Source: an uncultured Rivibacter sp. (GTDB taxonomy: Bacteria; Pseudomonadota; Gammaproteobacteria; Burkholderiales; Burkholderiaceae). Taken from it: a stretch of DNA of 27,922 nt. Position numbers and translations under genes: made by a program. The notes beneath the pieces are model-generated. The model saw only the letters and a list, made by a program, of their open reading frames with translations, did no database searches and had not been told where the DNA came from. Positions 554 through 24,996 of this stretch are shown here, one piece after another; position 1 is the first letter of the stretch; every line of letters starts with the position of its first letter. The stretch spans positions 1 through 27,922 of the forward strand of contig CAMLLU010000072.1 in assembly GCA_946480925.1 (NCBI GenBank), written 5' to 3'.

Positions 554-1873
<1,320 letters not shown>

Positions 1874-1953
1874 CGGCGAGCCCGCCGGCGGGGCGACCTG
1901 CTGCGGGCCGACGACTCCTTCGGTAGATGGACGGGCTGGGCCGCGCATGGGGA

Positions 1954-3243
1954 TCAGAAGTTCGTGCGGACGCCGACGCTGGCTTTTGCGCCGAAGGGGT
2001 CGTAGCACTCGCGCGAACGGCCGGGAGCGCACAGACCACCGTAACCGGGCGCTTCCTTGAAGTCAGTCTTGCTGACGTCGACGCCCACTACCGCACGTGT
2101 GCCTTTGGCGAATTCGTAGCTCACTTCGCCACCGACCTGCATCAGGTCGCGCGTGTCGTTCGAATAGATCCACGCATAGCCTTCCGGCAACACCGTGTCG
2201 GCACTCAGCGAGAAGCGAGTGAAGTTCGCGCGGGCCCACAGGCTCCAGGGGCCGTGCCAAGCGGAAAGGAAGACGGCCGCTTGGCGGGAGCGATAGCCGA
2301 CAGCGGGGAATGCCGGGTTGACCATCTGGACCCGGTTGACCTGATTGCGGCTTGCCGACGCACCGACGCGGAACGAGCTGAACTCGTATGAGGCCAACAG
2401 CGAGGCGCCCTGCGAGCTGGTGAGCGCGCCGCTGCCCGGCACGGCAGGGAACAGGGTATCGGAGCTGTAGATGCCATCGAGGCGCCCCGTCTCGCGCCAC
2501 TGGCGGGCGGTGTAGCGCTCGTGGTAGATGGCGGCGCGTGTCGTCAGGGCACCGAACCAAGTCCCGTCGAGCAGCAGCGAGTTGCCTCTGGGTTCGGTCT
2601 TGTTGCGCGAGTCTTCCTCGGCTGCGTGGAGGACGCGGATCTCCTTGCGCATGCGGGCGCCCTTGTAGTTCGCGTAGCTGAACGTCAGGCCGTGGCTCTT
2701 GTCACCGATCACATAGGGTGAGTCGTAGGCGACCATGAGGTCCAGCATTTCGCGGCCACCGAGATCGGTCGTGCCGTCGCCTTCCAGGGCCTTCATGCGA
2801 GGGTTGAGACCTCTGCCGGCCCTGACGGTGCCGAAGTCGAGGTGACGCAGGCCCACCCAGGTGTCCTCAAGTTCCGCCTGCACATGAGGGGAGTCGCTGT
2901 AGTCCACGAAATTGGTGGAGCTGTTGCCGCCCCCCTTGGCCGCTTCCGTGACGGTGTAGAAGGCGTTGTTCAGGTAGGCAGATGCTTGGCCGCGGAATAC
3001 CAGGGTGACGTCGTCGGAAAGATCGCTCACACCGTCGACGCGGAGGTAGTTATCGCCTTGCAGTCGTGTGCGCGTCTTCTTGCACGAGGCGGAACCATCG
3101 TTCCAGCACCCGTTCATGTCCTTGCCATAGTACGTGACTATCGCCTCGGCCTTGCCGCTGAACGTGAGGTCGGTGTCGGCCTGCGCGTTGCCGGCCAGGG
3201 CGGCAATCGCCATGGCCATGGCCGTGGAAAAACGATGCGTCAT
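1954..3243 (-). CDS. Outer-membrane general porin
   Basis: The protein has 429 residues. It has a Sec signal peptide (residues 1-22, ending GNAQA), alternating short beta strands with aromatic girdle residues throughout, and a C-terminal Phe in the final strand (VGVRTNF), the usual signal for outer-membrane assembly. RAGRGLNPR and RAGRG-like segments resemble betaproteobacterial trimeric porins (Porin_4 type). The start ATG at 3243 is preceded by CAGGAGA at good spacing. It is the second gene of the unit behind the lipoprotein (44-base gap) and is followed by GH1, so it probably admits mannan oligosaccharides or their breakdown products to the periplasm. Four Cys residues form two close pairs (46/54 and 405/413), which is unusual for a porin and could be loop disulfides. 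Substrate preference is inferred from context only. Confidence 0.88.
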   Translation of the reverse strand: MTHRFSTAMAMAIAALAGNAQADTDLTFSGKAEAIVTYYGKDMNGCWNDGSASCKKTRTRLQGDNYLRVDGVSDLSDDVTLVFRGQASAYLNNAFYTVTEAAKGGGNSSTNFVDYSDSPHVQAELEDTWVGLRHLDFGTVRAGRGLNPRMKALEGDGTTDLGGREMLDLMVAYDSPYVIGDKSHGLTFSYANYKGARMRKEIRVLHAAEEDSRNKTEPRGNSLLLDGTWFGALTTRAAIYHERYTARQWRETGRLDGIYSSDTLFPAVPGSGALTSSQGASLLASYEFSSFRVGASASRNQVNRVQMVNPAFPAVGYRSRQAAVFLSAWHGPWSLWARANFTRFSLSADTVLPEGYAWIYSNDTRDLMQVGGEVSYEFAKGTRAVVGVDVSKTDFKEAPGYGGLCAPGRSRECYDPFGAKASVGVRTNF

Positions 3244-5251: not shown

Positions 5252-7390
5252 TCAGTCCAGCGCCGTCACGTCCATCACCAGCGCCGATTCGCCGGCAAGG
5301 CGCGGTAGCGCGAGGCCGGCATTGCGCAGCCATGAGCCGTGCAGCACGGCACCCTCGGGTTGTGACCACGCCTCATGCAACGCCGAGCGGCCGCCGCCGG
5401 GCAGTTCGGGCAGCAGGTGTGAATCGAGCCGTCTCACACGGTAGCGCCGCTGCGCATCGAGCATCGGCAGTCGAAGCGAGGGGCTGTAGCGTTGCGCGGT
5501 GGGCTCCAGCCGGTACACCAGCAGCACCAGTTGCCGGTCGTCGCCATGCGCCTGCCAGACGATGCCGTCGCCCGCCTCGCCGAGCTGGACGGCGCAGCCG
5601 TGCAGGCGCCCCCGCAACTGCTTGTACAGCGCGATCCACCCTGCCAGGCGCTGCCGCGCGGCCGCATCGAGGCGACGAACGTCCGTCTCCACGCCCAGGT
5701 GCAAAGGCAGCGCAACGGCGGCTCGGAAGTCCAGCGACTGGCTGCGCCCCGTCGTGTGGGCGGGGGCAGGGCCGACGTGCGCGCCCAGCACCTCGGGTGG
5801 AAAGAACTGCAGCGCGCCACGCTGGATGCCCACGCGTGAACGGGCGTCGTTGCAATCGCTCGTCCAGACGCGGTGCGTGTGCCGCAGCACGCCCAGGTCG
5901 ATGCGCGCCCCGCCGGACGAACAGCTTTCGATCTCGAGCTGCGGGTGGGCATCGCGCAGGCGCTGCATCAGGCGGTAGAGCGAGCGCACCTGGGCCCGGT
6001 AGGCTGCCCGCCCACCGCTGCCTGCCGTGGTGAGGTCGCGATTCATGTCCCACTTGAAGTAGCTGATCGGCACCTCGCGCAGCAAGGTGTCGAGCCGGCT
6101 GAAGAGGTGGTCGGCGACTTCCTGGCGTGCCACGTCGAGCACCAGCTGGTTGCGTCCAGTGAGCAGCGGCCGGCTGTCGAGCTGCAGGGCCCACCCGGGG
6201 TGGTTGCGGTACAGCTCGCTGTCCGGGCTCACCATCTCGGGCTCTACCCACAGGCCGAACTCCATGCCGAGGGCGTTCACGCGCCGGGCCAGCGGCGCGA
6301 GCCCCTGCGGGTACTTGTGCTCGTCGGGCCACCAGTCGCCCAGTGCAGCCCGGTCGCTGTGGCGGCCGTGGAACCAGCCGTCGTCGAGCACGAAGCGTTC
6401 GACGCCGACCTGGGCCGCAGCCTCCGCGAGCGACTCCAGCGCCTGCATGTCGTGATCGAAGTAGATCGCCTCCCAGGTGTTCAGGTGCACGGGGCGCGGC
6501 CTCATTCCGGCAGTTGGCCAGGGCAGGGCCGCACGCACCGCGGCATGGAAGCTCGCTGCCAGCCCGTTGAAGCCGTGGGTCGAGCAGGCGGCGTAAAGCT
6601 CCGGCGTGGCGATCGACTCACCCGGCGCGAGCTCCACCTCGCCCGGTGCCAGCCATTCCCCCAGTTGCCATTGAAAGCCGCCTTCGGCCAGCGGCTCGAT
6701 GGTCTGCTGGTGGTTGCCCGACCACGCGAGGTGCGCGCCGTAGACGAGGCCGGTGTCGGCGCTGGCCTGCGGGCCCATCACCAGGGCGCCGGGGAAGCAG
6801 TCGTGCGAGGTGCGTCCGCGCCGGTTCTCACGCCGCCAGAGGCTGTGCGTGAGAGGTTCGGTTTCGGCGCGGAACTCGTTGGCCCACTGGCCATGGAACG
6901 AACGCACACGATCGCACGTGCCCGGCAATGGCAGCGTGCCGGCCGCCAGCCATTGCAGCTGCAGCAGGGCGGCACCTTCGTTGACCAGCGTAGTGCGTAG
7001 GCGCAGCACGTCGTCACCGCCCAGCTGCATTTCGAGCTTCGCCACGAGCTGCGCCACGTGGTCGTGCAGCTCGAACACGACGCTGCGCTGCGCATCGACT
7101 TCGGTGACGTGGCATGCATCGAACTGCTGCGCGAAGTCCCGCCCCTGCCGGTGCGCGAGCAACGCGCTCTGGCCGAACCAGCCCACGCCGAAGGTCGGCA
7201 ACACCGAGAGCGGGCGTTCCTCTTCGAGCGACGACGGCGGTACCGGCCGCGTATCGCGCAGCCACGGGCCAGGGGTGCAGCCTTCGGGCAGCCGTGGGCC
7301 CCAGTAGCGCCACAGCGGCGCTTCGTGGCTGCCGCATTCGAGCACCACGCTGACGTGCGGGCTGTGCAGGGTGATGTAGCGGCGTTCCAT
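5252..7390 (-). CDS. GH36 alpha-galactosidase
   Basis: The 712-residue protein has the length and layout of a bacterial GH36 alpha-galactosidase: an N-terminal beta-supersandwich (to about 290), a (beta/alpha)8 barrel and a C-terminal beta domain. The nucleophile is Asp448 in YFKWDMNRDL, and the acid/base is Asp512 in WTSDCNDARSR. FVLDDGWFHGRHSD (333-346), GLWVEPEMVSPDSELY (379-394) and the SCSSGGARIDLG segment near 489 are diagnostic. It removes alpha-1,6-galactosyl side groups from galactomannan or galactoglucomannan oligosaccharides. No signal peptide is seen, so it acts on imported oligosaccharides. ATG 7390 has GAAGGA seven bases upstream and lies 14 bases after the isomerase stop. It is the last gene of the long minus-strand run. 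Confidence 0.95.
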   Translation of the reverse strand: MERRYITLHSPHVSVVLECGSHEAPLWRYWGPRLPEGCTPGPWLRDTRPVPPSSLEEERPLSVLPTFGVGWFGQSALLAHRQGRDFAQQFDACHVTEVDAQRSVVFELHDHVAQLVAKLEMQLGGDDVLRLRTTLVNEGAALLQLQWLAAGTLPLPGTCDRVRSFHGQWANEFRAETEPLTHSLWRRENRRGRTSHDCFPGALVMGPQASADTGLVYGAHLAWSGNHQQTIEPLAEGGFQWQLGEWLAPGEVELAPGESIATPELYAACSTHGFNGLAASFHAAVRAALPWPTAGMRPRPVHLNTWEAIYFDHDMQALESLAEAAAQVGVERFVLDDGWFHGRHSDRAALGDWWPDEHKYPQGLAPLARRVNALGMEFGLWVEPEMVSPDSELYRNHPGWALQLDSRPLLTGRNQLVLDVARQEVADHLFSRLDTLLREVPISYFKWDMNRDLTTAGSGGRAAYRAQVRSLYRLMQRLRDAHPQLEIESCSSGGARIDLGVLRHTHRVWTSDCNDARSRVGIQRGALQFFPPEVLGAHVGPAPAHTTGRSQSLDFRAAVALPLHLGVETDVRRLDAAARQRLAGWIALYKQLRGRLHGCAVQLGEAGDGIVWQAHGDDRQLVLLVYRLEPTAQRYSPSLRLPMLDAQRRYRVRRLDSHLLPELPGGGRSALHEAWSQPEGAVLHGSWLRNAGLALPRLAGESALVMDVTALD

Positions 7391-7404
7391 GTGGCGATCC
7401 TTCG

Positions 7405-8628
7405 TCAGCGTGCCGGTGCCTTCTGCAGGCCGAGTGCGCGCAGCACGTCGTAGCAGGCACCCATCGTGTGGTAGTCGGTCTTGCCGGCCGGGCTTTTTTC
7501 GTCGGTGAGCTTGCGGTTGTCGGGCGAGAGGATGCGGTACCAGGCGCCGTGCTGGTGGTCGACGAAGTGCTCCCAGCTGTAGGCCCAGATGCGGTCGTAC
7601 CACTCCCAGTACCGGGTTTCGCCGGTGCGCACGGCCAGCCAGGCTGCGGCCGCGAAGCTTTCGGCCTGCACCCAGAAATACTTGTCGCCGTCGCACACCT
7701 CGCCGTCGGGCCCGAAGCCGTAGACCAGCCCGCCATGGGCGGGGTCCCAGCCGCGTTGCATGGCGGTGTCGAAGAAGTGCCGTGCCTTCGGCAGCAGCCA
7801 GTCGGCCGGCGCGTGCCGCTCCAGCTGCAGCAGCAGCTTGGCCCACTCCGTGAGGTGGCCGGTCTGGAAGCCCCAGGGCCGGAAGATATTGGTCTTGTCG
7901 TGGCGGTTGTAGTCCCAGTCCACCGACCAGTCGCTGCGGTAGTGCTCCCACACCAGTCCATCGGCCAATGCCGCCTGCCTGAGCGTCACGGACTGCGCCA
8001 GCAGCTCCGCGCGGCGCAGGAAGCTGCCCGACCCCGTGGCTTCGAAGGCGGCCAGCATGGCCTCGCAGGCATGCATGTTGGCGTTCTGCCCGCGGTAGCT
8101 GCCGAGCCGCCAGTCAGCGTCGGCTTCGTCGGCATAGAGGCCGTGCTCGCGCTCCCAGAAACGATGCTCCATCAGCTCGAAGGTGGCCCACAGGCCGGGC
8201 TCGGCTTCGCGCACGCCGGCCATCAGCGCATGGGCATGTGCCAGCAGCACGAAGGCCAGGCCGTAGCAATGGTTCGTGCCGTCCTGCACGGTGGCCTGCG
8301 AGCCGCCCCAGTCGATCTGCCAGGCATGGCCGCCATTCGGCTGGCGATGCGCCTTCTGCAGGAAGCGCAGGCCGTGGCGCACGAGCGACGGTTCGTGTGC
8401 CTCGCCGAAGTGGCGCGAGGCCATGGCATGGTTGAACACGAAGCGCGTGCTGCTGACCAGGTGGCGCGTGCGCCGGTCGTAGACGGTGCCGTCGTCCTTG
8501 AAGAAATGAAAGAAGCCGCCGGTCTCGTCGATCTCGCGGCGGGCATAGAAGTCCAGCGTGCGGCGCACGTGCTGCCGCAGGAATTCAGGAGAGCGGAAAT
8601 CGGGTGTGGCCATGGTTCGTGAGGTCAT
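7405..8628 (-). CDS. AGE family sugar isomerase, D-mannose isomerase-like
   Basis: This 407-residue member of the N-acylglucosamine 2-epimerase superfamily has an (alpha/alpha)6 barrel. SYRGQNANMHACEAML (177-192), RPWGFQTGHLTEWAKLL (250-266, His258) and KTDYHTMGACYDVL (His387) correspond to the YihS/mannose isomerase branch rather than the disaccharide epimerase branch. His258 and His387 match the two catalytic histidines of that branch. The predicted reaction is interconversion of D-mannose and D-fructose, feeding mannose freed by the beta-mannosidase into glycolysis after phosphorylation. ATG 8628 overlaps the stop of regulator 2 (ATGA), which suggests translational coupling. A second in-frame ATG at 8613 is possible. 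The exact sugar is inferred from family and context. Confidence 0.85.
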   Translation of the reverse strand: MTSRTMATPDFRSPEFLRQHVRRTLDFYARREIDETGGFFHFFKDDGTVYDRRTRHLVSSTRFVFNHAMASRHFGEAHEPSLVRHGLRFLQKAHRQPNGGHAWQIDWGGSQATVQDGTNHCYGLAFVLLAHAHALMAGVREAEPGLWATFELMEHRFWEREHGLYADEADADWRLGSYRGQNANMHACEAMLAAFEATGSGSFLRRAELLAQSVTLRQAALADGLVWEHYRSDWSVDWDYNRHDKTNIFRPWGFQTGHLTEWAKLLLQLERHAPADWLLPKARHFFDTAMQRGWDPAHGGLVYGFGPDGEVCDGDKYFWVQAESFAAAAWLAVRTGETRYWEWYDRIWAYSWEHFVDHQHGAWYRILSPDNRKLTDEKSPAGKTDYHTMGACYDVLRALGLQKAPAR

Positions 8629-9650
8629 TCGGTTGGTGCCGATTCGCCGCCTTGCGGCACTGTGCTGCCGCGCACGACGAGCTCCACCGGCAGCAAGGTT
8701 TCGCCGCTCGTGTGCTGGCCGGCCAGCAGCTGTTGCGTGGACATGAAGCCCATGAGTTCCTTTTCGACGCGCACCGTGGTGAGCCCCGGCGTCGAGGAGG
8801 CGGCGGCAGCGATGTCGTCGTAGCCGGCGATCGCCAGGTCGTGCGGCACGCGCAACCCGAGGTTCTGGCACTCGTGCAGCACTTCCAGCGCGAGTTCGTC
8901 GTTGTAGACGAACAGCGCGTCCGGCCGGTTCGGCAGCTGGAGCAGGCGCCGCAGCGTGGAAGCGACGGCTTCGGTCCGATCGGCACTGCCGTCCACCTGC
9001 ACCTCCAGGTCGGGGTCGGTCGGCAGCCCGGCCTCGAACATGGCCTTGCGGTATCCACGTGCGCGCAGGGCGATGGAATGGTGGCCGGACGGCCCGCCGA
9101 TGAAGGCAATGCGCCGGTGCCCCTGCGCGATGAGATGGTCCGTGACCTCGTAGGCTCCGCGGAAGTTGTCGTCGTTCACGCAGTGCACGCCGCTGGCGTG
9201 GTGATCGACGGCCACCATCGGCAGTTCAAGGCGTCGCAGGCGCTCGAACACGCTCTCTTCGAAGTGCCCCACACACAGCAGCAGGTGAGGGCGCTGGCGT
9301 CGCACCTCCTGCTCGACCCCGTCGTCGGGGCCCAGCATCAGCAGCGACAGCAGCGCCTTGTGGTGGCGGCAGCACGACTCGGCGCCCTGCAGCACGCGGC
9401 TGTAGAAGGCGTTGGACAGCGCGCCGCGGTGGTAGCGGTTGAGGATGAACAGCACCCGCCGGGGGGCGGTGCCCCCACTGGGCGCACTGCTGCGCAACCG
9501 GGCGCGGTCGTAGCCCAGGCGGTCGGCCGTGGCGATGACGGCCTGGCGAAGCTCCTCGGACAGTCCAGGTTGCTGGTTGAGTGCGCGTGACACCGTGCCC
9601 ACCGAAACGCCCGCCGCCGCGGCGACCTCGCGTATCGTGATCCGGTTCAT
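8625..9650 (-). CDS. LacI family transcriptional regulator 2
   Basis: The 341-residue protein has an N-terminal helix-turn-helix (TIREVAAAAGVSVGTVSRAL) almost identical to that of regulator 1. Its ligand domain has matching blocks: HHSIALRARGYRKA, DALFVYND and IAGYDDIAAA. ATG 9650 has AAGGG eight bases upstream. It lies inside the long catabolic run, 52 bases after the esterase gene, and its stop overlaps the isomerase start. Its own level would therefore rise with induction of the run, giving feedback. The same recognition helix suggests that it reads the same GTTTA/TAAAC operators as regulator 1, while the ligand domains are more diverged and may sense a different sugar. Confidence 0.93.
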   Translation of the reverse strand: MNRITIREVAAAAGVSVGTVSRALNQQPGLSEELRQAVIATADRLGYDRARLRSSAPSGGTAPRRVLFILNRYHRGALSNAFYSRVLQGAESCCRHHKALLSLLMLGPDDGVEQEVRRQRPHLLLCVGHFEESVFERLRRLELPMVAVDHHASGVHCVNDDNFRGAYEVTDHLIAQGHRRIAFIGGPSGHHSIALRARGYRKAMFEAGLPTDPDLEVQVDGSADRTEAVASTLRRLLQLPNRPDALFVYNDELALEVLHECQNLGLRVPHDLAIAGYDDIAAAASSTPGLTTVRVEKELMGFMSTQQLLAGQHTSGETLLPVELVVRGSTVPQGGESAPTE

Positions 9651-9702
9651 GACGACACCCTTTTGCGGTCGGCCGGGTACTGCACCGCGCGCATGGGAAT
9701 GC

Positions 9703-11946
9703 TCATTTCTTCAACACGTCTCGTCGCAGGAAGTCGACCAGCTCCTGCGCCAGCACGTCATGGGTGTCGATGCGCGGGTGGTTGTCGGTGTAGGCCTCGA
9801 AGACGTAGGACCACACGGCCGGGTCGTCGCGCCGCAGCGTCGCCACGGCCGACTTGAACCCCTGCAGCAGCTCGCTCGAATGGCGCCAGCCCGACATGCC
9901 GCCCAGCAGGCACACGATGCGGGCCTTCGGGTACAGCGCGCGCAGGCGTTTCACGAAGGCCACGTAGCGTTCGGTGTAGTCCTTGGGGAACGGCTGGCCT
10001 TGCGAATCCGGGAAGCCGAAGTCGTTCTGCCCCAGGTTGACCAGCACCACGTCGGGTGCGCGACCGGAGAAGTCCGCACGAGATGCGCTCGCACTGGGGG
10101 CGACGCGGTCGAAGACGGCGGGCATGAGCACGTCGTTCCAGCTGTGCGTGATGCCGGTGCCGCTGACGGCGATGCCCACGTAGTCGGCCCCCAGCCGCCG
10201 TGCCGCCACGGCGCCGTAGGCCCGCGTGCCGTCGTGCGTGGAGAGGTCTTCGTACTGGTCGGCTTCGGCATCGCCGTTGCAGGCGCCGGCCGTGATGGAG
10301 TCGCCGTAGAACTCCAGCCGCAGCGGCCGGTCGGCGGGCCGAGGCAGCAACTGCGCGCCCGGCTCCAGCAGCAGGCCCATGAAGCGGGCTTGCGAGAAGG
10401 CGCCTTCGGTGCGCTTGGCGATGCTGACCTCATGCTCGCCGGGCGGCAGGCTGGCCGCGAGCACGTAGTCGTGCTTGGCGTCGCGCTGCAACGCGAGCCG
10501 GTGAACCTGGCCGTCGATGGTCACCGAATAGAAGGCCGGCCCCGTGGCGCCGGCAAAGCGCAGCCCGAGCCTGCGGCCGGTGAACCGCGCGCGGATCTCG
10601 CTGCCGCTCCATGCGGCCAGCGGCGCGTCGGGCAGCTCGCGGTCGAAGCGGCCGACGTAGGCGTAGCGCGGGTCTGTGGCGCCGACGTGTTGCAACGTCG
10701 CTGCGCGGTCGGGGTCGATCTCGAAGGCCGATGCGCGGCCCGCAGGAGCGGCGGGCTGCAGCCCGGCCGTCATGATGCTCACCACGCCGGCGCTGCGGCC
10801 GGAGCCGGCGAACCCATCGCGGCGCATGCGGACGTGCAGCAGGTGGGCCCCGTCTTCGAGGTCCACGCCCACCGGCGCATAGGCCCAGCCGAGATAGCCC
10901 TGGCGCGTGGCGTTGTGCGTGTGGAGCTCGACGGGCGGCCGGTCGTCGACCCAGGCCTCCAGGTTGCGGTAATGCTTGCTTTCCGAATGGAACAGCCCGA
11001 TCTGGCGGCCGTACACGAGGAAGGACATGACGGCGTCGTCCGCATCGCTCACCCAGCCTTCGCGCGCGCCACCGGGGAGGCTGCGCCATTCCTCGTGCAC
11101 GTCGCTGCCGCGCTTGAAGCCGCGGTTCGCATACGGCTCGGCGTCGCCGTTGCCCAGCTCGCTCACGAACTCGAAGTCAGCCGAATGCAGCGGCGCGGGC
11201 AGCGCCCGCGCTTCGGCCGCCGACCACGGCATGCGTGCTTCCCGCCACGCGGCGCCCAGGGCTTCGATCACCGCGGCGGCGATCACGCCGTGCCCGTCCT
11301 GGTTGGGGTGCACGGGCTCGTCGTACAGCGTTTCCCACCGCACTTCGCCCAGCGCGGCCCGGCGCTGCATCCAGCTGCCGAAGTCGATGGACGTGAGCCC
11401 GTAGTGGCGCGCGATGCGCAGGTGCTCCTCGACCGCGTCGCGCGGCTGGTTGCCTTGTTGCGTGAGGTGCAGCGCCACGACCGCAGGGCGGTTCGGCGCC
11501 TTCAGCAACTGGCGGATCAAACCCTCGTAGCTGCGCGGGCGCACCCGCGGATCGAGCCACTGGTCATTGACGCCGAATTCGACGATGACGATGTCGGCTG
11601 CCGTGTCGATGGCCTGTGCCCGCACACGCTGCGCCGCCGCGGCCGAGTCGGTGCCGCTGGCGCCGAGGTTGAGGAACTCGACACGCCCGCCCGCCCGCTG
11701 GGCCTGCTGCTGCAGCCAGTTCGCCACGGAAGCGGCCCAGCCGCGCTGCTGCGGCGGCTGGGCCGCGTAGCCGGTGGTGATGGAGCCGCCGATGGCGGCA
11801 AGCTTGATGGTGCCGCCAGCCTGCAGGCGGGCCAGGGCTTGTACGAGTTGCGGATCCATTGCGGGCACTCGTTCAGCCGGCATGGCGGTTTGCGGAAGCA
11901 GCAGCTGCAGTAGCAGCAGTCCGGTGCCCAGGAGCCAGGTTCTCAC
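9703..11946 (-). CDS. Two-headed SGNH esterase: N-terminal GDSL-like unit fused to a CE2-type acetyl esterase
   Basis: The 747-residue exported protein has a signal peptide at residues 1-24, rich in Leu and ending AMPA. The first SGNH unit has Ser55 (GGSIT), Gly/Asn in GVND (Asn127) and Asp210-region DEPVHPN (His213). A beta-rich linker domain spans about 255-400. The second half has a CE2-like jelly roll (about 430-530) and a second SGNH unit with Ser550 (YGDSITAG), Asn641 (LGQNDFG) and His723 (DNHP). Both active sites look complete. CE2 and other SGNH esterases remove O-acetyl groups from plant polysaccharides, and in this locus acetylated mannan oligosaccharides are the likely substrate. 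The start is GTG 11946, with GAGAAAGG seven bases upstream. It sits 12 bases after the ABC exporter stop. Confidence 0.85.
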   Translation of the reverse strand: MRTWLLGTGLLLLQLLLPQTAMPAERVPAMDPQLVQALARLQAGGTIKLAAIGGSITTGYAAQPPQQRGWAASVANWLQQQAQRAGGRVEFLNLGASGTDSAAAAQRVRAQAIDTAADIVIVEFGVNDQWLDPRVRPRSYEGLIRQLLKAPNRPAVVALHLTQQGNQPRDAVEEHLRIARHYGLTSIDFGSWMQRRAALGEVRWETLYDEPVHPNQDGHGVIAAAVIEALGAAWREARMPWSAAEARALPAPLHSADFEFVSELGNGDAEPYANRGFKRGSDVHEEWRSLPGGAREGWVSDADDAVMSFLVYGRQIGLFHSESKHYRNLEAWVDDRPPVELHTHNATRQGYLGWAYAPVGVDLEDGAHLLHVRMRRDGFAGSGRSAGVVSIMTAGLQPAAPAGRASAFEIDPDRAATLQHVGATDPRYAYVGRFDRELPDAPLAAWSGSEIRARFTGRRLGLRFAGATGPAFYSVTIDGQVHRLALQRDAKHDYVLAASLPPGEHEVSIAKRTEGAFSQARFMGLLLEPGAQLLPRPADRPLRLEFYGDSITAGACNGDAEADQYEDLSTHDGTRAYGAVAARRLGADYVGIAVSGTGITHSWNDVLMPAVFDRVAPSASASRADFSGRAPDVVLVNLGQNDFGFPDSQGQPFPKDYTERYVAFVKRLRALYPKARIVCLLGGMSGWRHSSELLQGFKSAVATLRRDDPAVWSYVFEAYTDNHPRIDTHDVLAQELVDFLRRDVLKK

Positions 11947-11958
11947 GTTCGGCCTTTC

Positions 11959-13791
<1,833 letters not shown>

Positions 13792-13807
13792 GGCAGTGCT
13801 GTTCACT

Positions 13808-15070
13808 TCACAACCGTCGAGCGCAGTTCGCCAGGCGATCCATCATCTCGAAGCAGGCCCGTGCGTGGTGGTAGGGACATTCCCACGGCCCGGTCTTCAA
13901 GTGGTGGGGAACCGGCCGGTTGTGGACGTCCAGCACCTTGAACCACTCGCCGTGCCTGCGGTCCACATGGTGCTCTTCGGCATAGCGCCAGCAGCGCCAC
14001 GCGGCCTGCGCATGCACGGGGTCGAGGTGGTGCTCGAAGGCGTTCCAGAAGCCCACCATGCCTTCGGCCTGACACCACCAGTGGCGTTCGGGGTCGGTGA
14101 CCCTCGTCGTCGTGCCCTCGGCGAGCACGCAGCCTTCGGCGCCCACGCCACGTGCCAGCACGGCGTCGGCCACGTGCACAGCGAGGCCCTGCGTGCGCTG
14201 CATGAGCTGGGTGTCGCCCAGCACCTCGGCCGCGCGCTGCAGCAGCCATGCCGCTTCGATGTCGTGGCCGTAGGACACCTGGCCCGTCATGCAGCGCCAG
14301 TTGGCGGTGAAGAAGAGGCCGAAGTGCCTGTCGCGGGGCTGCCAGATCCGCTGCAGGAACAGCTCGACCATCTGCCTCACGCGGGCCTCCAACGTGGCGT
14401 CGCGCCACACGCGCAGCAGCTCGGTGCAGCCTTCGAGCACGTGCAGCATGGTGTTCATCGACTTGGCCGACGCCGGCTCCTTCGGCGACAGCCGGCTGTC
14501 GGCCATGAGCCGCCAGTCACGGGTGCAGCCTTCGAAGTAGCCGCCGTGCTTCGGGTCGTACGCCGCGGCATCGAGCTGGCGGAACAGGCTCTGCGCCAAC
14601 TGCAGGGGCTGTCTGGCGATGCTCAGCCGGTGATAGGCCGCAAGGGCGTAGATCGCAAAGCCCTGTGCGTAGGAGTGCTTGATGTCCTGCACCGGGCGGC
14701 GCGCTGCATCCACGCCCCAGTACACGCCGCCGTGCTGAACGTCCCACAGCGCGTCGCGCAGCCAGGCCCATGCGTGTTCGGCCACCGTGTGCCAGCGGTC
14801 GTCGCGCAGCAGCCGCGCGGCGGTGGAGAACGTCCACAGGATGCGCGTGCCCAGCACGGCTGTGCGGGGCTGTTCGTCGCGCAGGGTGCCGTCGTTGTCA
14901 CGTCCGCCATAGAAGCCGCCATTCGGGTCCAGCATGCGGCGCTGCCAGTACGGCAGGATGTTGCCCTCGAGCTCCTCGCGCAGGCGGGTGCGCCACAGGC
15001 CGAGGCCGTGGCGATTCAGCGGAAGCGACTCAGGCAGGCCTGTGGGCACTGAGGCAGCCGTTGCAAGCAT
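13808..15070 (-). CDS. Mannobiose/cellobiose 2-epimerase (AGE family)
   Basis: The 420-residue protein belongs to the disaccharide 2-epimerase branch of the AGE superfamily. It opens with LEGNILPYWQRRMLDPNGGFYG, shown here as the segment at 34-55. Landmarks are SYGHDIEAAWLL (His269), WWCQAEGMVGFWNA (331-344) and WECPYHHARACFEMM (His401). These are the residues that carry out proton transfer in characterised cellobiose 2-epimerases. It should convert the reducing-end mannose of beta-1,4-mannobiose (or glucose of cellobiose) to its C2 epimer, giving mannosyl-glucose in mannan pathways. There is no signal peptide, so it is cytoplasmic. ATG 15070 is four bases after the GH5-like stop and has GGGTTGAGG before it. 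No GH130 phosphorylase, its usual partner, is seen in this window. Confidence 0.9.
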   Translation of the reverse strand: MLATAASVPTGLPESLPLNRHGLGLWRTRLREELEGNILPYWQRRMLDPNGGFYGGRDNDGTLRDEQPRTAVLGTRILWTFSTAARLLRDDRWHTVAEHAWAWLRDALWDVQHGGVYWGVDAARRPVQDIKHSYAQGFAIYALAAYHRLSIARQPLQLAQSLFRQLDAAAYDPKHGGYFEGCTRDWRLMADSRLSPKEPASAKSMNTMLHVLEGCTELLRVWRDATLEARVRQMVELFLQRIWQPRDRHFGLFFTANWRCMTGQVSYGHDIEAAWLLQRAAEVLGDTQLMQRTQGLAVHVADAVLARGVGAEGCVLAEGTTTRVTDPERHWWCQAEGMVGFWNAFEHHLDPVHAQAAWRCWRYAEEHHVDRRHGEWFKVLDVHNRPVPHHLKTGPWECPYHHARACFEMMDRLANCARRL

Positions 15071-15074
15071 CACC

Positions 15075-16952
15075 TCAACCCTTTGCACCCGACAGCTGGA
15101 CGATCGCGGCCACGTCGCGCTCGAACGCCGGGCATTCGGCACTGAGCACGCCGTCGTTGATGCTCGCCGAGAAGGGGGCCTGACCGAGCCATTGGCCGGT
15201 GACCGTGTCGAACCAGCGAACGCGCACGTTGCCGTCGGGCATTCGCAGGCCGGTGCAACGCACCACGGCGCCGGTGATGGGTTTCCATGGCGGCGTCCAC
15301 TTGGCGGCCGGGGCGTCCTCGTGGTCTTCCTTGTAGGCCGCTTGCAGCGCGGCGGCATCGAGCAGGTTGGCCCGCACCCACAGCAGGACGGTCGCCGGCC
15401 CCACCAGCGCCAGTGCCGTGCCTTCCTTGCTGCTCAGCTGCGCCGGGTGCGGCCTGTGCGCCGCCAGCGGCTCGCGTTCCTGCACGCGGTCGATGAAGCG
15501 CGAGATGCCGCGATAGGTCGACCACAGCTTCTGCGGGTCGACCAGCATGTCCCACCACCAGTACAGCGCGGTGCCCGCATAGCCGCGGAAGATGGGCGCC
15601 CACAGGCCGTTGTGCAGGTGCACCGCGTCCCAGTTGAACGGACGCTTGGCGCCCGCGTCGTAGGCGGTCTCCATGCCCAGCTCGGCGGGCAGCAGCGGCT
15701 TGGCCGGTACTTCCTCGCGGAACTCGCGGTACTGCGACGCGTAATGCAGGCTGAGGTCACGTGTCGTGTAGTCGTGCTGCTGCGCGAAGTCGATCTCGGG
15801 CATGGCCCACACCTGCGCTGCGCCGCGGTGGGCCCAGCTGGTGCTGCGCAGGCGGCGGTAGGGGTCGTGGCGGTCGAGCACCGCGCTCATCTCGCGGATC
15901 CACGGCACCAGCTCGTCGTCGTGGATGGGGGTCCAGTTGACCTCGTTCCACCACTCCCAGCTGTGCAGTGCCGGCGAATGCGACCAGCGGGCCGCGATGT
16001 AGCGCACCCGGCGCGCGAAGAGCGCCTTCGCACGGGTGTTGGAAACGAACTCCTCCGGCTCCTTCAGCGGCCCGCCGTTGGCCGCGTTGTAGGGGTTGTC
16101 GGCCCATTCGGCGTCGGCCCCCACGGAGAACGCGCCGTGGTTGAGCAGGCACAGCATGATGCGGATGCCGTGCGATTCGGCCAGCTCCAGCACCTGGTCG
16201 AGCAGGTTGGCGCGGTCCATGCGCGCGGCGTAGTCGCCCAGCGGCGTGTCCTTCCACTCGATGCCGAAGGCCCAGCTCGACATCCACAGCCGCGCGAAGT
16301 TGCCGCCGTTTTCGGCCAGACGCCGGAACCAGCGCTTGTAGTCTTCCAGGGCCGATCCGCCGCCGCCCCAGGCGACGTTCAGCCCCACCGGCACGAAGGG
16401 GCTGCCGTCCTCGAAGGCGAAGTAGCCCGGGTGTTTGGCGTCGATGCCGATGCGGCGTTTCGGCGACAGCTGCCGCACCTCGAAGCTCATGGGCTCGCCC
16501 ACGGCCACGGGCGAGCCGCCGGCCATGCGCATCTGCGTGCGGGCTTTCCACGTGCCGGCGGCCGTGGGCATGAGCCGCACGGCCCAGCCGCGGCCTTCGC
16601 GGTCTTTCATCCAGAACGCGGTGGCGCGCAGCCGCTGCCCGCCCGGGCCTTCGAATTCCACCCACAGGTCGACCTGCGCTTCGTCGAAGGGGTTGGACTG
16701 CAATGCCGACCATGCCGAGGGCGCTTTCATGCGCCACTCGAGCCAGCCGCTGCCGCGGACTTCGGGGCCGCTCCAGTTGGCCGATGCGGCCGCGTCGCGC
16801 GCGGCGCGAAGATCTGCTTCGTTCACGGGTGAGGCACTCCAGCCGGAAGAGCCGAAGCCGGCGGCAACGGCGGCGGCGGCGGCTTGCACGACGCGCCGGC
16901 GTGCCAGCCGATCGGCTTCCGGCGCGATGCTTGTTGTGTGTTTTGGACTCAT
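15075..16952 (-). CDS. GH5-like glycoside hydrolase with N-terminal DUF5060 domain, probable Tat export
   Basis: The protein has 625 residues. Residues 15-42 form a twin-arginine-like signal (ARRRVVQ followed by an Ala-rich stretch). A DUF5060-like beta-sandwich spans about 55-162 (NPFDEAQVDLWVEFEGP and GWAVRLMPTAAGTW). A TIM-barrel hydrolase domain follows (about 170-500), with the probable acid/base Glu337 in WEWWNEVNW and the probable nucleophile Glu424 in LPAELGME. A small C-terminal beta domain ends the protein. The arrangement is that of clan GH-A enzymes with an accessory sandwich. Endo- or exo-acting beta-mannanase activity fits the locus, but the subfamily is not one I can assign. 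It lies eight bases after permease G, so it is made together with the importer and probably acts in the periplasm on entering oligosaccharides. Confidence 0.8.
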   Translation of the reverse strand: MSPKHTTSIAPEADRLARRRVVQAAAAAVAAGFGSSGWSASPVNEADLRAARDAAASANWSGPEVRGSGWLEWRMKAPSAWSALQSNPFDEAQVDLWVEFEGPGGQRLRATAFWMKDREGRGWAVRLMPTAAGTWKARTQMRMAGGSPVAVGEPMSFEVRQLSPKRRIGIDAKHPGYFAFEDGSPFVPVGLNVAWGGGGSALEDYKRWFRRLAENGGNFARLWMSSWAFGIEWKDTPLGDYAARMDRANLLDQVLELAESHGIRIMLCLLNHGAFSVGADAEWADNPYNAANGGPLKEPEEFVSNTRAKALFARRVRYIAARWSHSPALHSWEWWNEVNWTPIHDDELVPWIREMSAVLDRHDPYRRLRSTSWAHRGAAQVWAMPEIDFAQQHDYTTRDLSLHYASQYREFREEVPAKPLLPAELGMETAYDAGAKRPFNWDAVHLHNGLWAPIFRGYAGTALYWWWDMLVDPQKLWSTYRGISRFIDRVQEREPLAAHRPHPAQLSSKEGTALALVGPATVLLWVRANLLDAAALQAAYKEDHEDAPAAKWTPPWKPITGAVVRCTGLRMPDGNVRVRWFDTVTGQWLGQAPFSASINDGVLSAECPAFERDVAAIVQLSGAKG

Positions 16953-16960
16953 TGAGGTGT

Positions 16961-17866
16961 CTAGCCTTTGGTGGCACCGGCCGTGAGGCCGTCGATGAAT
17001 TGACGCTGGAACAGCAGGAAGGCGATCACCGCGGGCAGCGAGACCACCAGCGAGGCGGCCATCAGCACGGCGGCCGACTGCGGGTCGAAAGTGAGGTTGC
17101 CGGCCAGCTTGCCCAGCACGAGCGGCAGCGTCATGTGCTGCGCGTCGTTGATCACGAGCAGGGGCCAGAGGAAGTTGTTCCACTCGGCGATCGCCACCGG
17201 GATGCCGATGGCGGCGAGGCCCGGCCGCAGCAGGGGCAGCACGACGCTCCACCAGATGCGCAGCGTGCCCGCGCCGTCCATGGTGGCGGCATCGATCAGG
17301 TCGTTCGGGATCGACAGGATCATCTGCCGGAAGTAGAAGACCACGAAGGCCTTGGCCAGGCCGGGGATGAGCAGCGCCTCGTAGCGGTTGATCCAGCCGA
17401 GCTCGGTGACGGTGATGAAGTTGGGAATGATCGTCACCTCCCACGGCACCATCATGCTGGCCAGCAGCAGGTTGAACAGCAGCCGGCTGCCGGGGAAGGG
17501 ACGCTTGGTCAGCACGAAGGCCACGAACGACGCCGCCAGCAGGCTCACCACCGTGACGAAGGCCGTGATGCCCAGGCTGTTGAGGTAGTAGTGCGCGAAG
17601 CCCCAGCCTTCGGACTCGCGCTGGAAGATGCCGGCCCAGTGACCGGGCCGTTCTTCGCCTTCCACGTAGCCGGGGTCGTAGAAGTTCTGCGTCGTCGGTT
17701 CTTCGACCCAGAAGGTCGGCGGCTGCTGCACCAGCTCGGGCACCGTCTTGAAGGCGCCGATGGCCATCCAGTAGTAAGGCACGAGCACGCTCGCCACGAG
17801 CAGCAGCAGCGGCAGTTTCGCCACCGCCCACCACCGCGACGTCTTCTCGTTGGGAACCAGTTGCAT
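16961..17866 (-). CDS. Carbohydrate ABC importer permease, MalG type
   Basis: The 301-residue inner-membrane protein has about six hydrophobic segments and the cytoplasmic EAA loop at 192-216 (DAATMDGAGTLRIWW, then VVLPLLRPG), which docks on the ATPase. It belongs to the CUT1 family of oligosaccharide importers. A loop of about 50 residues after the first segment (around 45-90) is periplasmic. ATG 17866 has GAGGG ten bases upstream. Its partners are permease F, the binding protein upstream and the ATPase encoded on the other strand at 20433. Confidence 0.94.
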   Translation of the reverse strand: MQLVPNEKTSRWWAVAKLPLLLLVASVLVPYYWMAIGAFKTVPELVQQPPTFWVEEPTTQNFYDPGYVEGEERPGHWAGIFQRESEGWGFAHYYLNSLGITAFVTVVSLLAASFVAFVLTKRPFPGSRLLFNLLLASMMVPWEVTIIPNFITVTELGWINRYEALLIPGLAKAFVVFYFRQMILSIPNDLIDAATMDGAGTLRIWWSVVLPLLRPGLAAIGIPVAIAEWNNFLWPLLVINDAQHMTLPLVLGKLAGNLTFDPQSAAVLMAASLVVSLPAVIAFLLFQRQFIDGLTAGATKG

Positions 17867-17879
17867 GCTCAGCCCGCCC

Positions 17880-17963
17880 TCAGCACCGCCATGCTTCGGC
17901 AGCAGCGGTCGGCCTGAACCACGGGCCCACGTTCATTGGCTGGCACTGCGCTTTGATCTGCAC
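17880..17963 (-). CDS. Candidate small protein (27 residues) between the two permease genes
   Basis: A GTG start at 17963 lies nine bases after a perfect AAGGAG ribosome-binding site located in the end of permease F. The reading frame starts four bases after the permease F stop and ends 13 bases before the permease G start. It fills what would otherwise be a 100-base gap in a run where other gaps are under about 55 bases. The peptide begins VQIKAQCQPMNVGPWF and ends in a Trp-Arg-Cys, with Cys at 7 and 27 and Trp at 15 and 25. It has no membrane segment or signal. I do not recognise it. It could be a real small protein, or a short translated leader that couples permease G to permease F. Confidence 0.5.
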   Translation of the reverse strand: MQIKAQCQPMNVGPWFRPTAAAEAWRC

Positions 17964-17967
17964 GATT

Positions 17968-18921
17968 TCAGGCTCCTTCGTGTGCGCGGCCCAGCCGCAT
18001 GTTGACCATCGTGAGCACGAACAGGATGGCGGTGAGCACCCAGGCCACGGCGGACGCATAGCCCAGGTTGAGCTGATGGAAGCCGTGGTCGAACAGGTAG
18101 GTCACCAGCATCAGTGCCGAATCGAGCGGGCCTCCCACCGAGTCGACCGTGCCGAACAGGATGTAGGGCTCGTAGAACACCTGGAACGACGTGATCATTC
18201 CGGTGACGAGCACATACAGGATGGTGGGCCGCAGCAGCGGCAGCGTGATGTGGAAGAAGCGCTGCACCGGTGTCGCGCCGTCGAGCGCCGCGGCCTCGTA
18301 GAGCTCCGCCGGGATGTTGCGCATGCCCGCCACGAAGATCACCAGGTTGTAGCCCATGACGGCCCACACGGCCATCATCGTGAGGATGGGCAGGGCCCAG
18401 GCCGGGTCGCCGAGGAAGCGCACCGGGTCGAGCCCGAACCACGAGCGCACGGTGTTGAAGAGGCCGTAGGGCTCGGAGTTCGCGAGCCACTTCCACACCG
18501 AGATGACGCCCACGCCGCCGGCCACCGAAGGCAGGAAGAACGCGATGCGAGCCCACTGGTGCGTGCGGCGCTGGCTGCCGAAGGCCACCGCGAGCACGAG
18601 GCCGAGCACCACCGCCAGCACCGAGACCATGGCCATGTAGGCGCAGGTGTTCCACAGCGCGCGATAGAAGCGCTCGTCGGCGAACAGCTCGGCATAGTTG
18701 TTCCAGCCCACCCACGCCGGCGCGTCGGTGGCGTGGTAGTCGGTGAAGCTCAGGTACAGCGAGCGCAGCACCGGCCACAGGCTGAACACGGCGAACAGCG
18801 CAAGAAAGGGCAGCACCAGCAGCACGTTGGTGCCGTGCCGGCGCAGCTGGCGCGCCAGGCGCCGGCGGGGCCGGGGCGCGGCGGGCATGTGAGGCTGCTC
18901 GGGTGCGTGGGGGGCGCGCAT
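17968..18921 (-). CDS. Carbohydrate ABC importer permease, MalF type
   Basis: The 317-residue protein has about six membrane segments and the EAA loop at 209-232 (EAAALDGATPVQRFFHITLP). It belongs to CUT1, together with permease G. The N-terminus (first 30 residues) is Arg/Pro-rich and cytoplasmic. ATG 18921 lies 14 bases after the binding-protein stop and has no strong ribosome-binding site, while ATG 18888 is an in-frame alternative. The order binding protein, F, G matches sugar importers of the maltose type. Confidence 0.93.
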   Translation of the reverse strand: MRAPHAPEQPHMPAAPRPRRRLARQLRRHGTNVLLVLPFLALFAVFSLWPVLRSLYLSFTDYHATDAPAWVGWNNYAELFADERFYRALWNTCAYMAMVSVLAVVLGLVLAVAFGSQRRTHQWARIAFFLPSVAGGVGVISVWKWLANSEPYGLFNTVRSWFGLDPVRFLGDPAWALPILTMMAVWAVMGYNLVIFVAGMRNIPAELYEAAALDGATPVQRFFHITLPLLRPTILYVLVTGMITSFQVFYEPYILFGTVDSVGGPLDSALMLVTYLFDHGFHQLNLGYASAVAWVLTAILFVLTMVNMRLGRAHEGA

Positions 18922-18935
18922 GAAGGCGAGCGGCG

Positions 18936-20162
18936 CTACTTCGCCAGTGCCTTGTTCATCTTCTCCGCCGCGGCGGAAAGCGACTGCTTCGCGTCGGCGC
19001 CGGCCAGCACGACCTGCTGCACGGCACGCGTCACCGCGTCGTCGGCCTTTTCCCAGCCCCGGCAGTTGGGCGGGCCTTCGGCGTCCTTGAGCTGCTCGAC
19101 GAGCGCGCGCTTGCGGTCGGCCGGCAGCTCGGCCGACTCGATGAGGTCTTCGCGCCCGCCGGGCAGCCACAGCAGGCCCAGCTTGAGCGCGGTGTCGGTC
19201 ATCTTCCTGGCCACCGGCGTCTCGAAGATGGTGCGCACGAACTCGACCGCCAGGTCGGGGTGGGCGGACATCGTCGTCACGCCGATCGTGGTGCCGCCGA
19301 TGAAGGCCGTGGACTTGCCGGTGGGGCCTGCAGGCAGCTTGGCCGCGCTCCACTTGCCCGTGATCTTCTTGCGCGAGACGTCGAGGCTGGTGAAGGCCCA
19401 GCTGCCGGTCTGCACCAGTGGGTAGGCACCGCTTTCCAGGCCGGTCTCGACGTCGGGCCAGGGGTCGCTCGGTGCCTTCAGCCTGCTGTAGAGCGTGGCG
19501 TAGTACTGCAGGGCCTTCACGGCTTCCGGGCTGTCCACCGTGGCCTTGGTGCACTTGGCGTCGTAGAGCGAGCCGCCGGCCTGCTGGAGGTACGGAAAGA
19601 AGCCGACCCAACCCAGGTTGCCCCATTGCTGGGCCCAGCCCTTCGTGCCGGTGCCGCGCAGTTTCTCCACTTCGGTGGCGAATTCGTCCCAGGTGGCGGG
19701 CACCTTGGCGACGAGGTCGGTGCGGTAGAGCTGCAGCTGGACGTGAAGGTCGTAGGGCAGGGCGAACAGGGCGCCGTCTTGCGATCGGATCGAGCGCATG
19801 ACGCCCTGGTTGGCCGTCTTCTCGAGCGACTTCACGAGGTCGGGCGCTTTCCTGGACAAGTCGACGAGGCCGCCCTTGGCGCCCAGCTCGATGCCGTAGG
19901 ACAGGCCGCCGGTGATGACGTCCGGCCCGGTCTTGCTGGCGATGGCCGCGGAGTACTTGGTCATCGCGTCACCCCAGGGAATGGCCCGGACCTCGAACTC
20001 CACGCCAGGCCGCTTGGCCTTGAAGCTGTCGATCGCCGGTTGCAGCACCTTGGCGGACTTGTCGTCGCCCACGAGCCACACCGTGAGCTTCTCGGCGCGT
20101 GCCGGCGCGGCGCAGGCCATGCCCAACGCCAGTACGAAAACCGAAAGGGAGCGGGTTGTCAC
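18936..20162 (-). CDS. Periplasmic sugar-binding protein of the ABC importer
   Basis: The 408-residue protein has a Sec signal peptide (1-23, ending APARA) and the type 1 solute-binding fold of CUT1 importers (KLTVWLVGDDKSAKVLQPAIDSFKAK pattern at the mature N-terminus, residues 25-50). GPDVITGG, ALPYDLHVQLQLYRTDL and YPLVQTGSWAF are family-like. It should capture mannan oligosaccharides in the periplasm, although the ligand is inferred from neighbours. The start is GTG 20162 with GAGGAG eight bases before it. It is the first gene of the long minus-strand run and is preceded by a good promoter with an operator at the start site. Confidence 0.93.
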   Translation of the reverse strand: MTTRSLSVFVLALGMACAAPARAEKLTVWLVGDDKSAKVLQPAIDSFKAKRPGVEFEVRAIPWGDAMTKYSAAIASKTGPDVITGGLSYGIELGAKGGLVDLSRKAPDLVKSLEKTANQGVMRSIRSQDGALFALPYDLHVQLQLYRTDLVAKVPATWDEFATEVEKLRGTGTKGWAQQWGNLGWVGFFPYLQQAGGSLYDAKCTKATVDSPEAVKALQYYATLYSRLKAPSDPWPDVETGLESGAYPLVQTGSWAFTSLDVSRKKITGKWSAAKLPAGPTGKSTAFIGGTTIGVTTMSAHPDLAVEFVRTIFETPVARKMTDTALKLGLLWLPGGREDLIESAELPADRKRALVEQLKDAEGPPNCRGWEKADDAVTRAVQQVVLAGADAKQSLSAAAEKMNKALAK

Positions 20163-20432: not shown

Positions 20433-21533
20433 GTGGCGACTTTGAGCCTGCGAAACATCGAGAAGACCTACGACGGCGCCGCCGCACCGGTGATCCGCGG
20501 CCTCGACCTGGACGTGGCCGACGGCGAGTTCATGGTGTTCGTCGGCCCCTCGGGGTGCGGCAAATCCACCACGCTGCGGATGATTGCAGGCCTGGAGGAA
20601 ATCACCGGCGGCGAGCTGCTCATCGGCGGGCGCGTCGTCAACGACCTGCCGCCGGCCAAGCGGGGTGTCGCGATGGTGTTCCAGAGCTACGCGCTGTACC
20701 CGCACATGACGGTGGCCGAGAACATGGGCTTCGCGCTCAAGCTCGCCGGAGCCTCACGTGAAGAGGTGGCCACTGCCGTGGCGCGGGCCGCGCGCATCCT
20801 GCAGATCGAGCCGTTGCTGGACCGCAAGCCCAAGGCGCTTTCGGGCGGGCAGCGGCAGCGGGTGGCGATCGGCCGGTGCATCGTGCGCCAGCCCCAGGTG
20901 TTCCTGTTCGATGAGCCGCTGTCCAACCTCGATGCGGCGCTGCGGGTGCAGATGCGGGCCGAGCTGGCGCGGTTGCATCGCGAACTGCGCACCACGATGG
21001 TCTACGTCACGCACGACCAGGTGGAGGCGATGACCCTGGGCCACCGCATCGCGGTGTTCAACCAGGGCGTCATCGAGCAGTGCGGCGCGCCGCTGGATCT
21101 CTACGAGCGCCCCGCGAACCGCTTCGTCGCAGGCTTCATCGGCTCGCCCGGCATGAACTTCCTGCCGGTGGCGATGGCCGCCGTGGCGGGCGAGCTGCAG
21201 CTCGTGCTGCCCGGCAGTTCGATGTGGGCCCTGCCTCGCGAGCGCCGACCCTCCGCAGCGGTCGACGTGAGCCTTTCGCTCGGCGTCCGCCCCGAACACC
21301 TCGAACTCACGTCACCTGGCGAGGGTGACTTCGACGCGTGGGTCGATGCCGTCGAGCACCTCGGCGGCGAACAGGTCGTGCATCTCAAGACGACCAGCGA
21401 CTCCACCTCCTTGATCGCCAAGCTCGACGGCGACGCGCCGCAAGTGCGTGCAGGCGAGCCAGCCGGCGTGCGCATCGACGCGCGGCGTTTCCACCTCTTC
21501 AGCGACGACGGCCGGGCCGTCCCGCTCTCCTGA
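20433..21533 (+). CDS. ATPase of the carbohydrate ABC importer (MalK/MsmK/UgpC type)
   Basis: The 366-residue protein has Walker A GPSGCGKST (38-46), Q-loop Gln84, signature LSGGQ (136-140), Walker B VFLFDE (156-161) and the switch His194. A C-terminal regulatory TOBE-like domain follows (about 240-366). It energises the CUT1 importer formed by the binding protein and permeases F and G on the other strand. Such ATPases often serve several importers. The start is GTG 20433, supported by GGAG seven bases upstream and by the conserved N-terminus (ATLSLRNIEKTYDG). An upstream in-frame ATG at 20325 would add 36 unconserved residues. GH2 starts two bases after its stop. Confidence 0.94.
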   Translation: MATLSLRNIEKTYDGAAAPVIRGLDLDVADGEFMVFVGPSGCGKSTTLRMIAGLEEITGGELLIGGRVVNDLPPAKRGVAMVFQSYALYPHMTVAENMGFALKLAGASREEVATAVARAARILQIEPLLDRKPKALSGGQRQRVAIGRCIVRQPQVFLFDEPLSNLDAALRVQMRAELARLHRELRTTMVYVTHDQVEAMTLGHRIAVFNQGVIEQCGAPLDLYERPANRFVAGFIGSPGMNFLPVAMAAVAGELQLVLPGSSMWALPRERRPSAAVDVSLSLGVRPEHLELTSPGEGDFDAWVDAVEHLGGEQVVHLKTTSDSTSLIAKLDGDAPQVRAGEPAGVRIDARRFHLFSDDGRAVPLS

Positions 21534-21535
21534 AC

Positions 21536-24087: not shown

Positions 24088-24996
24088 ATGAAAAGGAACA
24101 CTGGCATTTCAGCCCGCAATGGACTCGTCGGCATGCTCTGCGGGCCGGTTTTCGCCTCGATGGCTTTTGCGCAGGCGGCATCGTCATCGGAAGCCGAAAC
24201 CGAAGCGATGGCGCGAGCCAAACGCGACGCCGAGAAGGTGTTTTCGTGGATCCGCAAGGACGGCGAGGTCGCTGCCCCGCAGGGGAAGCGCAAGCCGAAC
24301 GACGACGCTGATGCGCCGGCTCCCAAGGCCGCGCCGAAGCCGCCCGTGGCCAAGCCGCCACCGCCGCGAGCGGTGAAAGCTCCGCCAGCGGCGGCCAGCG
24401 CTGCGGCGCCCACCGTGGCCAAGCAGCCGGACGCCTCCGCCGCTTCGGCAAAGCCGCAAGGCGCGCCGGCCCCCACTGGCAAGCAGCAAGCGACCCCGGC
24501 GGTTCCTGCGGCAACAGCAACGGCAACGGCGACGAAAGGTCCCGAACTGCCTCCCGCGCTGTTCGACTTCGAGAAGAACAGCGAAGGGTTCACCGCCAAC
24601 GACGGCTACAAGTGGGGCCCCTCCGCTGGAGCGGAATTGGCGCTCGTCGACAAGGCGATGCGAGGTGCGAAGGCCTTGCAGGTCAAGGTGGTGCGTGACA
24701 GCTGGGTTGGCCGCGACCTCGAAAGCGAGGACTGGGGCGGCAAGGCCTACGTGGTGTTCGCCCTGCACAGTGAGCGCGGCTATGTCGGGAAGGTGGGTTT
24801 CAAGACGGGCCCGGACTGGAGCTGGTGCGACGCCAAGGCCGTGGCGAGCGGTGAATCGAAGGGTTTCACCATCTACCGCGTGGCGCTGGAGAGCAAGTTG
24901 TGCCCCTCGCTGGACAGGCGTGACGTGCGCGGCATGCACCTGTGGATCAACGGCGGCGACACCGTGACGCTCGACAACTTCCACCTCACCGACTAA
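24088..24996 (+). CDS. Exported protein with Pro/Ala/Lys-rich linker and one carbohydrate-binding-like module
   Basis: The protein has 302 residues. The signal peptide ends FAQA (residue 30) and is followed by a charged helix-like stretch (31-60). A low-complexity linker rich in Pro, Ala and Lys (about 65-150) then leads to a beta-sandwich-like module (158-302). The module has FDFEKNSEGF at its start, WSWCDAK (Cys247), a second Cys272, and ends LDNFHLTD. It shares this pattern with the three modules of the protein encoded next and with the lipoprotein at 3288-3962. No catalytic residues are evident. A role in holding mannan or oligosaccharide in the periplasm or at the surface is inferred. 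It follows GH2 by 47 bases. The ribosome-binding site is weak (GGAAAA). Confidence 0.75.
   Translation: MKRNTGISARNGLVGMLCGPVFASMAFAQAASSSEAETEAMARAKRDAEKVFSWIRKDGEVAAPQGKRKPNDDADAPAPKAAPKPPVAKPPPPRAVKAPPAAASAAAPTVAKQPDASAASAKPQGAPAPTGKQQATPAVPAATATATATKGPELPPALFDFEKNSEGFTANDGYKWGPSAGAELALVDKAMRGAKALQVKVVRDSWVGRDLESEDWGGKAYVVFALHSERGYVGKVGFKTGPDWSWCDAKAVASGESKGFTIYRVALESKLCPSLDRRDVRGMHLWINGGDTVTLDNFHLTD

Follow-up and report, generated by a model that had tools for sequence, protein, structure and literature searches.

Removal of acetyl groups from mannan by gut Bacillota has been assigned to pairs of separate esterases of families CE17 and CE2. FpCE17 takes off only the axial 2-O-acetyl group and FpCE2 the 3-, 4- and 6-O ones (PMC8262883), with a like division of labour between CE17 and CE2 in Roseburia intestinalis (PMC10492685). 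As of 2026, CE17 had been described solely for Bacillota (PMC13276840); the relevant paper that names CE2 together with CE17 means a pair of esterases, and no report of a CE17-CE2 or CE2-CE17 fusion was found in the literature searched, whose coverage left out subscription papers and preprints. Here, we describe such a fusion, encoded at positions 9703..11946 on the minus strand of a 27,922-nucleotide stretch of DNA from an uncultured Rivibacter sp. of the Burkholderiales (contig CAMLLU010000072.1, positions 1 to 27,922; hereafter the window). Two complete esterase modules, CE17-type and then CE2, lie in one chain of 747 residues with conserved active sites. The surrounding locus is of beta-mannan type, and this pairing recurs elsewhere as adjoining or fused genes. 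The protein is thus a possible one-piece form of the enzyme pair that strips acetyl groups from plant mannan, and we consider it likely, judging from sequence comparison, to be a bifunctional, probably exported acetyl-mannan esterase. The families and their pairing are known; the one-chain arrangement and the residue-level CE17 variant described below are new.

The initial annotation of this gene had proposed a fusion of two complete SGNH esterases within one open reading frame. Consistent with that proposal, Pfam detects GDSL at residues 51-219 of the protein, CE2_N at 430-537 and then a second GDSL stretch, and the residues that it had named (S55, N127, H213 and S550, N641, H723) all fall where it had placed them. 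The start codon is GTG, with GAGAAAGG 5' of it and a gap of 12 nucleotides to the stop of the preceding gene. A protein search with the fusion as query returned 204 matches at E <= 1e-3, and because each of the 120 listed matches covers 95-100% of the query, the frame is neither a chance frame nor a single assembly join. Organism names among these 120 are Roseateles, Pelomonas and Ideonella, otherwise Burkholderiaceae or Betaproteobacteria. An opposite-strand open frame of 794 amino acids (9529-11913, plus strand) overlaps the gene and is probably a GC-rich shadow frame. The N-terminus, about residues 1-24 (11875..11946, minus strand, as are all features of the protein), forms a hydrophobic, signal-peptide-like segment, in line with the annotated export; here and in relatives this was judged by a crude hydrophobicity test (maximum 2.2 here), and export is predicted on that basis. 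The halves are joined by a linker of about residues 401-426 (10669..10746), in which the predicted local distance difference test score (pLDDT) falls below 50 at residues 400-403.

The first half consists of an SGNH catalytic domain (residues 31-239; 11230..11856) and a beta domain (residues 250-400; 10747..11199) that profile alignment with 6hfz makes the equivalent of the RiCE17 CBM35. The RiCE17 structure 6hfz aligns with fusion residues 27-399, so that the first half has the CE17 architecture of an SGNH domain followed by a C-terminal CBM35-type beta domain. When 178 such domains are aligned together with RiCE17, residues S55, G95 (the oxyanion glycine), N127, E210 and H213 correspond to RiCE17 S41, G78, N110, D190 and H193. 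S55 is present in all 145 fused rows, and G95, N127 and H213 in 144 each; these rows include the window protein, and one gene may count twice, as protein and as locus. In RiCE17 the triad is Ser41-His193-Asp190, plus Asn110, and the CBM35 acts as a clamp with Trp326 that is crucial for binding and activity (PMC13276840). The likening of this half to CE17, which had been called a guess, is supported by the two-domain fold and by the aligned Ser, Gly, Asn and His.

Two positions depart from RiCE17. The third catalytic residue is Glu210 where RiCE17 has Asp190, a conservative change, and Tyr351 stands opposite the clamp residue Trp326 in the 179-row alignment, whereas the profile alignment pairs Trp326 with Q349, two residues earlier. 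Across the 179 rows the acid/clamp pair is Glu/Tyr in 162, Asp/Trp in 11 (RiCE17, P0147 and nine distant spirochaete loci), Asp/Tyr in two (the fused P0137 and P0138) and some other combination in four. That acid and aligned clamp residue are both altered in nearly the whole clade would suit a reading in which both halves act on mannan at overlapping positions, the Glu/Tyr module having a different or broader preference and linkage bringing a gain in rate or avidity. We regard this as unlikely, though not negligibly so, since the remaining catalytic residues and the entire two-domain fold are retained, and the pairing with CE2 in several arrangements better fits complementary roles.

The second half opens with a CE2_N jelly-roll domain identified by Pfam (residues 427-537; 10336..10668), followed by an SGNH catalytic domain (residues 540-747; 9706..10329) with S550, G596, N641, D721 and H723. 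This is the domain order of CE2, and the Ser-His pair and the Gly/Asn oxyanion hole (S550, H723, G596 and N641) are each present in 145/145 fused rows. These comparisons place the halves in CE17-type and CE2, respectively, as the initial annotation had suggested, and its claim that each half carries a beta domain of its own (CBM35-type in the first, a CE2_N jelly roll in the second) is borne out. Residues 721-723 read Asp-Asn-His, the same Asp/His spacing as Asp333/His335 of CjCE2A. Because position 721 is Trp in 91 and Tyr in 30 of the 145 fused rows, and Asp in 11, most fused relatives probably use a Ser-His dyad in this half; such dyads are reported for CtCE2 and CjCE2B (PMC2661963). The match to the NCBIfam AxeC2 equivalog NF042969 scored 107.5 bits and did not reach the curated cut-off of 500.

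CtCE2 also uses its esterase active site to bind cellulose (PMC2661963), a precedent for one half of the fusion serving mainly as a carbohydrate-binding module. W603 lies opposite CtCE2 Tyr-665 (a number counted from Gly-658) and is aromatic in all 145 fused rows, as this idea would have it, but the position of CtCE2 Trp-790 is Asn722 here and Ala in 125/145 fused rows, and both halves keep their catalytic residues; we think such a role most improbable.

Two other readings of the domain arrangement were rejected. The CE20 enzyme XAC1771 has an X448 insert interrupting its SGNH core and two flanking beta-sandwiches, a different domain order from that found here, and Foldseek comparison with 7kmm gave TM-scores of 0.18 (query length) and 0.29 (target length). 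Internal duplication fares no better: residues 27-400 against 405-747 give a best blastp E of 0.094, which is not significant, and the halves match different families.

The one-frame fusion in the order CE17-CE2 is found in 18 of 29 loci of the genome collection, 16 of them labelled Burkholderiales, Pelomonas or Roseateles; of the remaining two, one is assigned to an uncultured bacterium and the other to Spirochaetaceae. The Spirochaetaceae-labelled fusion (L012, 9962-12151) is ~48% identical to the window protein, has no evident signal peptide and lies near a GH130 phosphorylase gene. Among the other loci, two have separate adjoining genes in the same order (L018, L021), two have both esterase genes within one cluster (L025, L026), one has CE17 followed by a partial CE2 match only (L024) and five are interrupted by contig ends. 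L027, from a yak-rumen Treponema, carries a fusion in reverse order, CE2-like and then CE17 (9920-12178), with GH26, GH130 and GH36 genes near; L037, from the spirochaete search, has CE17 and CE2 genes side by side. The fusion is rare in a wider family sample, where 5/299 genomes had a CE17 match (centre included). In a spirochaete sample 22/392 genomes had one at E <= 1e-15, and 7 at E <= 2e-75 (query's own genome included). A mobile-element origin was rejected, as 0/15 matching plasmid and 0/7 matching phage records cover 80% of the query at one place. A Roseburia CE2 match on a plasmid (L030), with no mannan genes among its annotated neighbours, was used solely as a distant CE2.

Trees were built from hand-chosen rows, 48 of 178 for CE17 and 49 of 254 for CE2, each with one reference added. 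Domain rows were dropped below 330 residues (CE17), 290 residues (CE2) or 70 bits, and the partial loci L028 and L029 and duplicate loci L031-L035, L063 and L064 were left out; the remaining rows may hold the same gene as protein and as locus. The CE17 tree puts the fused sequences inside a well-supported clade (38 rows, 100/100) alongside separate and stand-alone relatives, while the CE2 tree, whose deep order lacks resolution and which contains long branches, places the two non-Burkholderiales fusions among stand-alone CE2 proteins. Because fused rows mix with separate and stand-alone relatives in both trees, fusion and separation have probably occurred repeatedly. In L027 the CE2 part falls below the length cut and so lies outside the CE2 tree; its CE2 match is partial, at 76 bits as against 358-484 in the 18 fused CE17-CE2 loci. 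Domain order and score together suggest that this reverse fusion, one locus in a metagenome-assembled genome, is independent.

The genes around the fusion point to mannan. A GH2 beta-mannosidase is encoded at 21338..24040 on the plus strand (5n6u, E 2.7e-144; its true start is probably inside the open reading frame), and a GH2 match lies at most about 10 kb from the fusion on the same contig in 13/13 Burkholderiales genomes searched (of 21), with one or two such matches per genome at E <= 1e-60. On the minus strand are a cellobiose (mannobiose) 2-epimerase-like gene (13808..15358; 9l8i, E 2.4e-94, match from residue 122), a second AGE-family epimerase/isomerase (7405..8871) of which a relative directly follows the fusion in 14/16 fused Burkholderiales loci, a GH36 alpha-galactosidase (5252..7951, domains from residue 212 of the open reading frame) and, by domain search, a GH1 glycosidase (554..2032) and a sugar ABC importer of two permeases and a binding protein (16961..20162). 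A DUF5060 protein (15075..16919, minus strand), which matches 9gmj (E 8.3e-53), has weak similarity to GH5 mannanases and has a counterpart in L013, may be the mannanase of the locus. Two LacI regulators and a porin-like protein are also encoded in the window. In other loci, GH26 mannanase genes adjoin CE17 (L018, L021, L024, L025, L026) or lie two genes off (L027), GH130 is present in L012, L025, L026 and L027, a GH5 gene lies shortly downstream in L005, and in P0040 the fusion has a third module, a GH5 mannanase (1bqc, E 3.1e-86).

Immediately upstream of the fusion is an ABC transporter of exporter type, made up of a membrane domain and an ATPase (11959-13806, minus strand), with no counterpart by tblastn in other Burkholderiales loci; L018 has an ABC exporter two genes past its CE2. 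A further SGNH esterase at 25097-27556 (plus strand) matches the CE3 enzyme 5b5s (E 8.8e-25) and shows, by eye, repeated beta modules, and a similar beta module occurs in a protein encoded near 24100-24996.

Both modules, their conserved sites and the mannan locus support the earlier proposal that one chain joins CE17- and CE2-like mannan deacetylation, as a predicted activity. Given how the published pairs divide the work, the most economical reading is that the window protein performs both deacetylations, acting outside the cytoplasm, probably in the periplasm, before import. The N-terminal module would remove axial 2-O-acetyl groups from mannose through a Ser55-His213-Glu210 triad and the beta-domain clamp, and the C-terminal module 3-O-, 4-O- and 6-O-acetyl groups through Ser550-His723, perhaps with Asp721. 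The GH36, GH1, GH2 and mannanase-type enzymes would next cleave the manno-oligosaccharides freed of acetyl groups, and products would be taken up by the cell and epimerised. With both modules in one chain, their ratio would be held at 1:1 and the two activities would stay on the same oligosaccharide.

Several points weigh against this account. The first half is only ~24% identical to RiCE17 and, given also the change of Asp190 to Glu and, if the 179-row alignment is correct, of Trp326 to Tyr, 2-O specificity cannot be assumed for it. The CE3-like esterase in the window means that the fusion need not perform all deacetylation. A signal-like N-terminus was seen in 82/114 fused proteins, and since the N-termini of the L012 and L027 fusions look unlike signal peptides, so that these relatives look non-exported, linkage is not a simple co-export device. 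Nor is a benefit from linkage a given, as BcCE7 and BcCE25 showed no synergy (PMC13276840); CE6-CE1 fusions gained from linkage with one biomass but showed no gain with a second (PMC7110780). Finally, CE2 enzymes deacetylate xylan besides glucomannan (PMC2661963), and L001 has no mannan gene in the six Pfam-scanned open reading frames of its 11 neighbours and no tblastn match to any of 16 mannan-locus queries, both of which would fit an acetylated plant glycan other than mannan, such as xylan, as the main substrate. The GH2 beta-mannosidase, cellobiose/mannobiose epimerase and GH36 genes of the window, the GH26 and GH130 genes and the fused GH5 mannanase of various relatives, and the action of CE17 enzymes on mannan throughout the literature covered make another substrate very unlikely, and an acetyl-mannan esterase remains our preferred reading.

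More broadly, we put at about even the chances that a one-chain, position-complete mannan deacetylase arose at least twice, as CE17-CE2 in Burkholderiales and relatives and as CE2-CE17 in a rumen Treponema, and that its CE17 module belongs to a subfamily whose triad is Ser-His-Glu and whose clamp residue is Tyr. Members of this subfamily would then be the first enzymes of CE17 type to be characterised from outside the Bacillota. If the predicted activity is right, the range of CE17 would come to include Burkholderiales and spirochaetes, softwood or konjac mannan could be treated with natural one-piece enzymes, of which one also bears a mannanase, and the separate, fused and reverse-fused versions would allow one to ask what is gained by linking two esterases.

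Among known systems, RiCE17 (PDB 6HFZ/6HH9) shares the SGNH and CBM35-type domains and the aligned Ser, His, Asn, Gly and acid positions, but is a stand-alone Bacillota protein with Asp and Trp where the fusion has Glu210 and (179-row alignment) Tyr351. CtCE2 (PDB 2WAO/2WAB) and CjCE2A share the CE2_N jelly roll, the SGNH domain and its Ser, Gly, Asn and His; like CjCE2A, the window protein has an Asp two residues before the His, whereas Trp or Tyr fills that position in most fused relatives, and CtCE2 differs in being linked to a cellulase. CE6-CE1 acetyl-feruloyl esterases of Bacteroidetes are likewise natural two-esterase fusions from a hemicellulose locus, but belong to other families and act on xylan, removing acetyl plus feruloyl groups (PMC7110780). 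Closest in gene content are RiCE2 with RiCE17 and FpCE2 with FpCE17, the same two families in mannan loci with GH36, an epimerase and an ABC importer (PMC8262883, PMC7666174); these are two genes and two proteins in gut Bacillota, whereas here a single signal-like chain of Burkholderiales type carries both.
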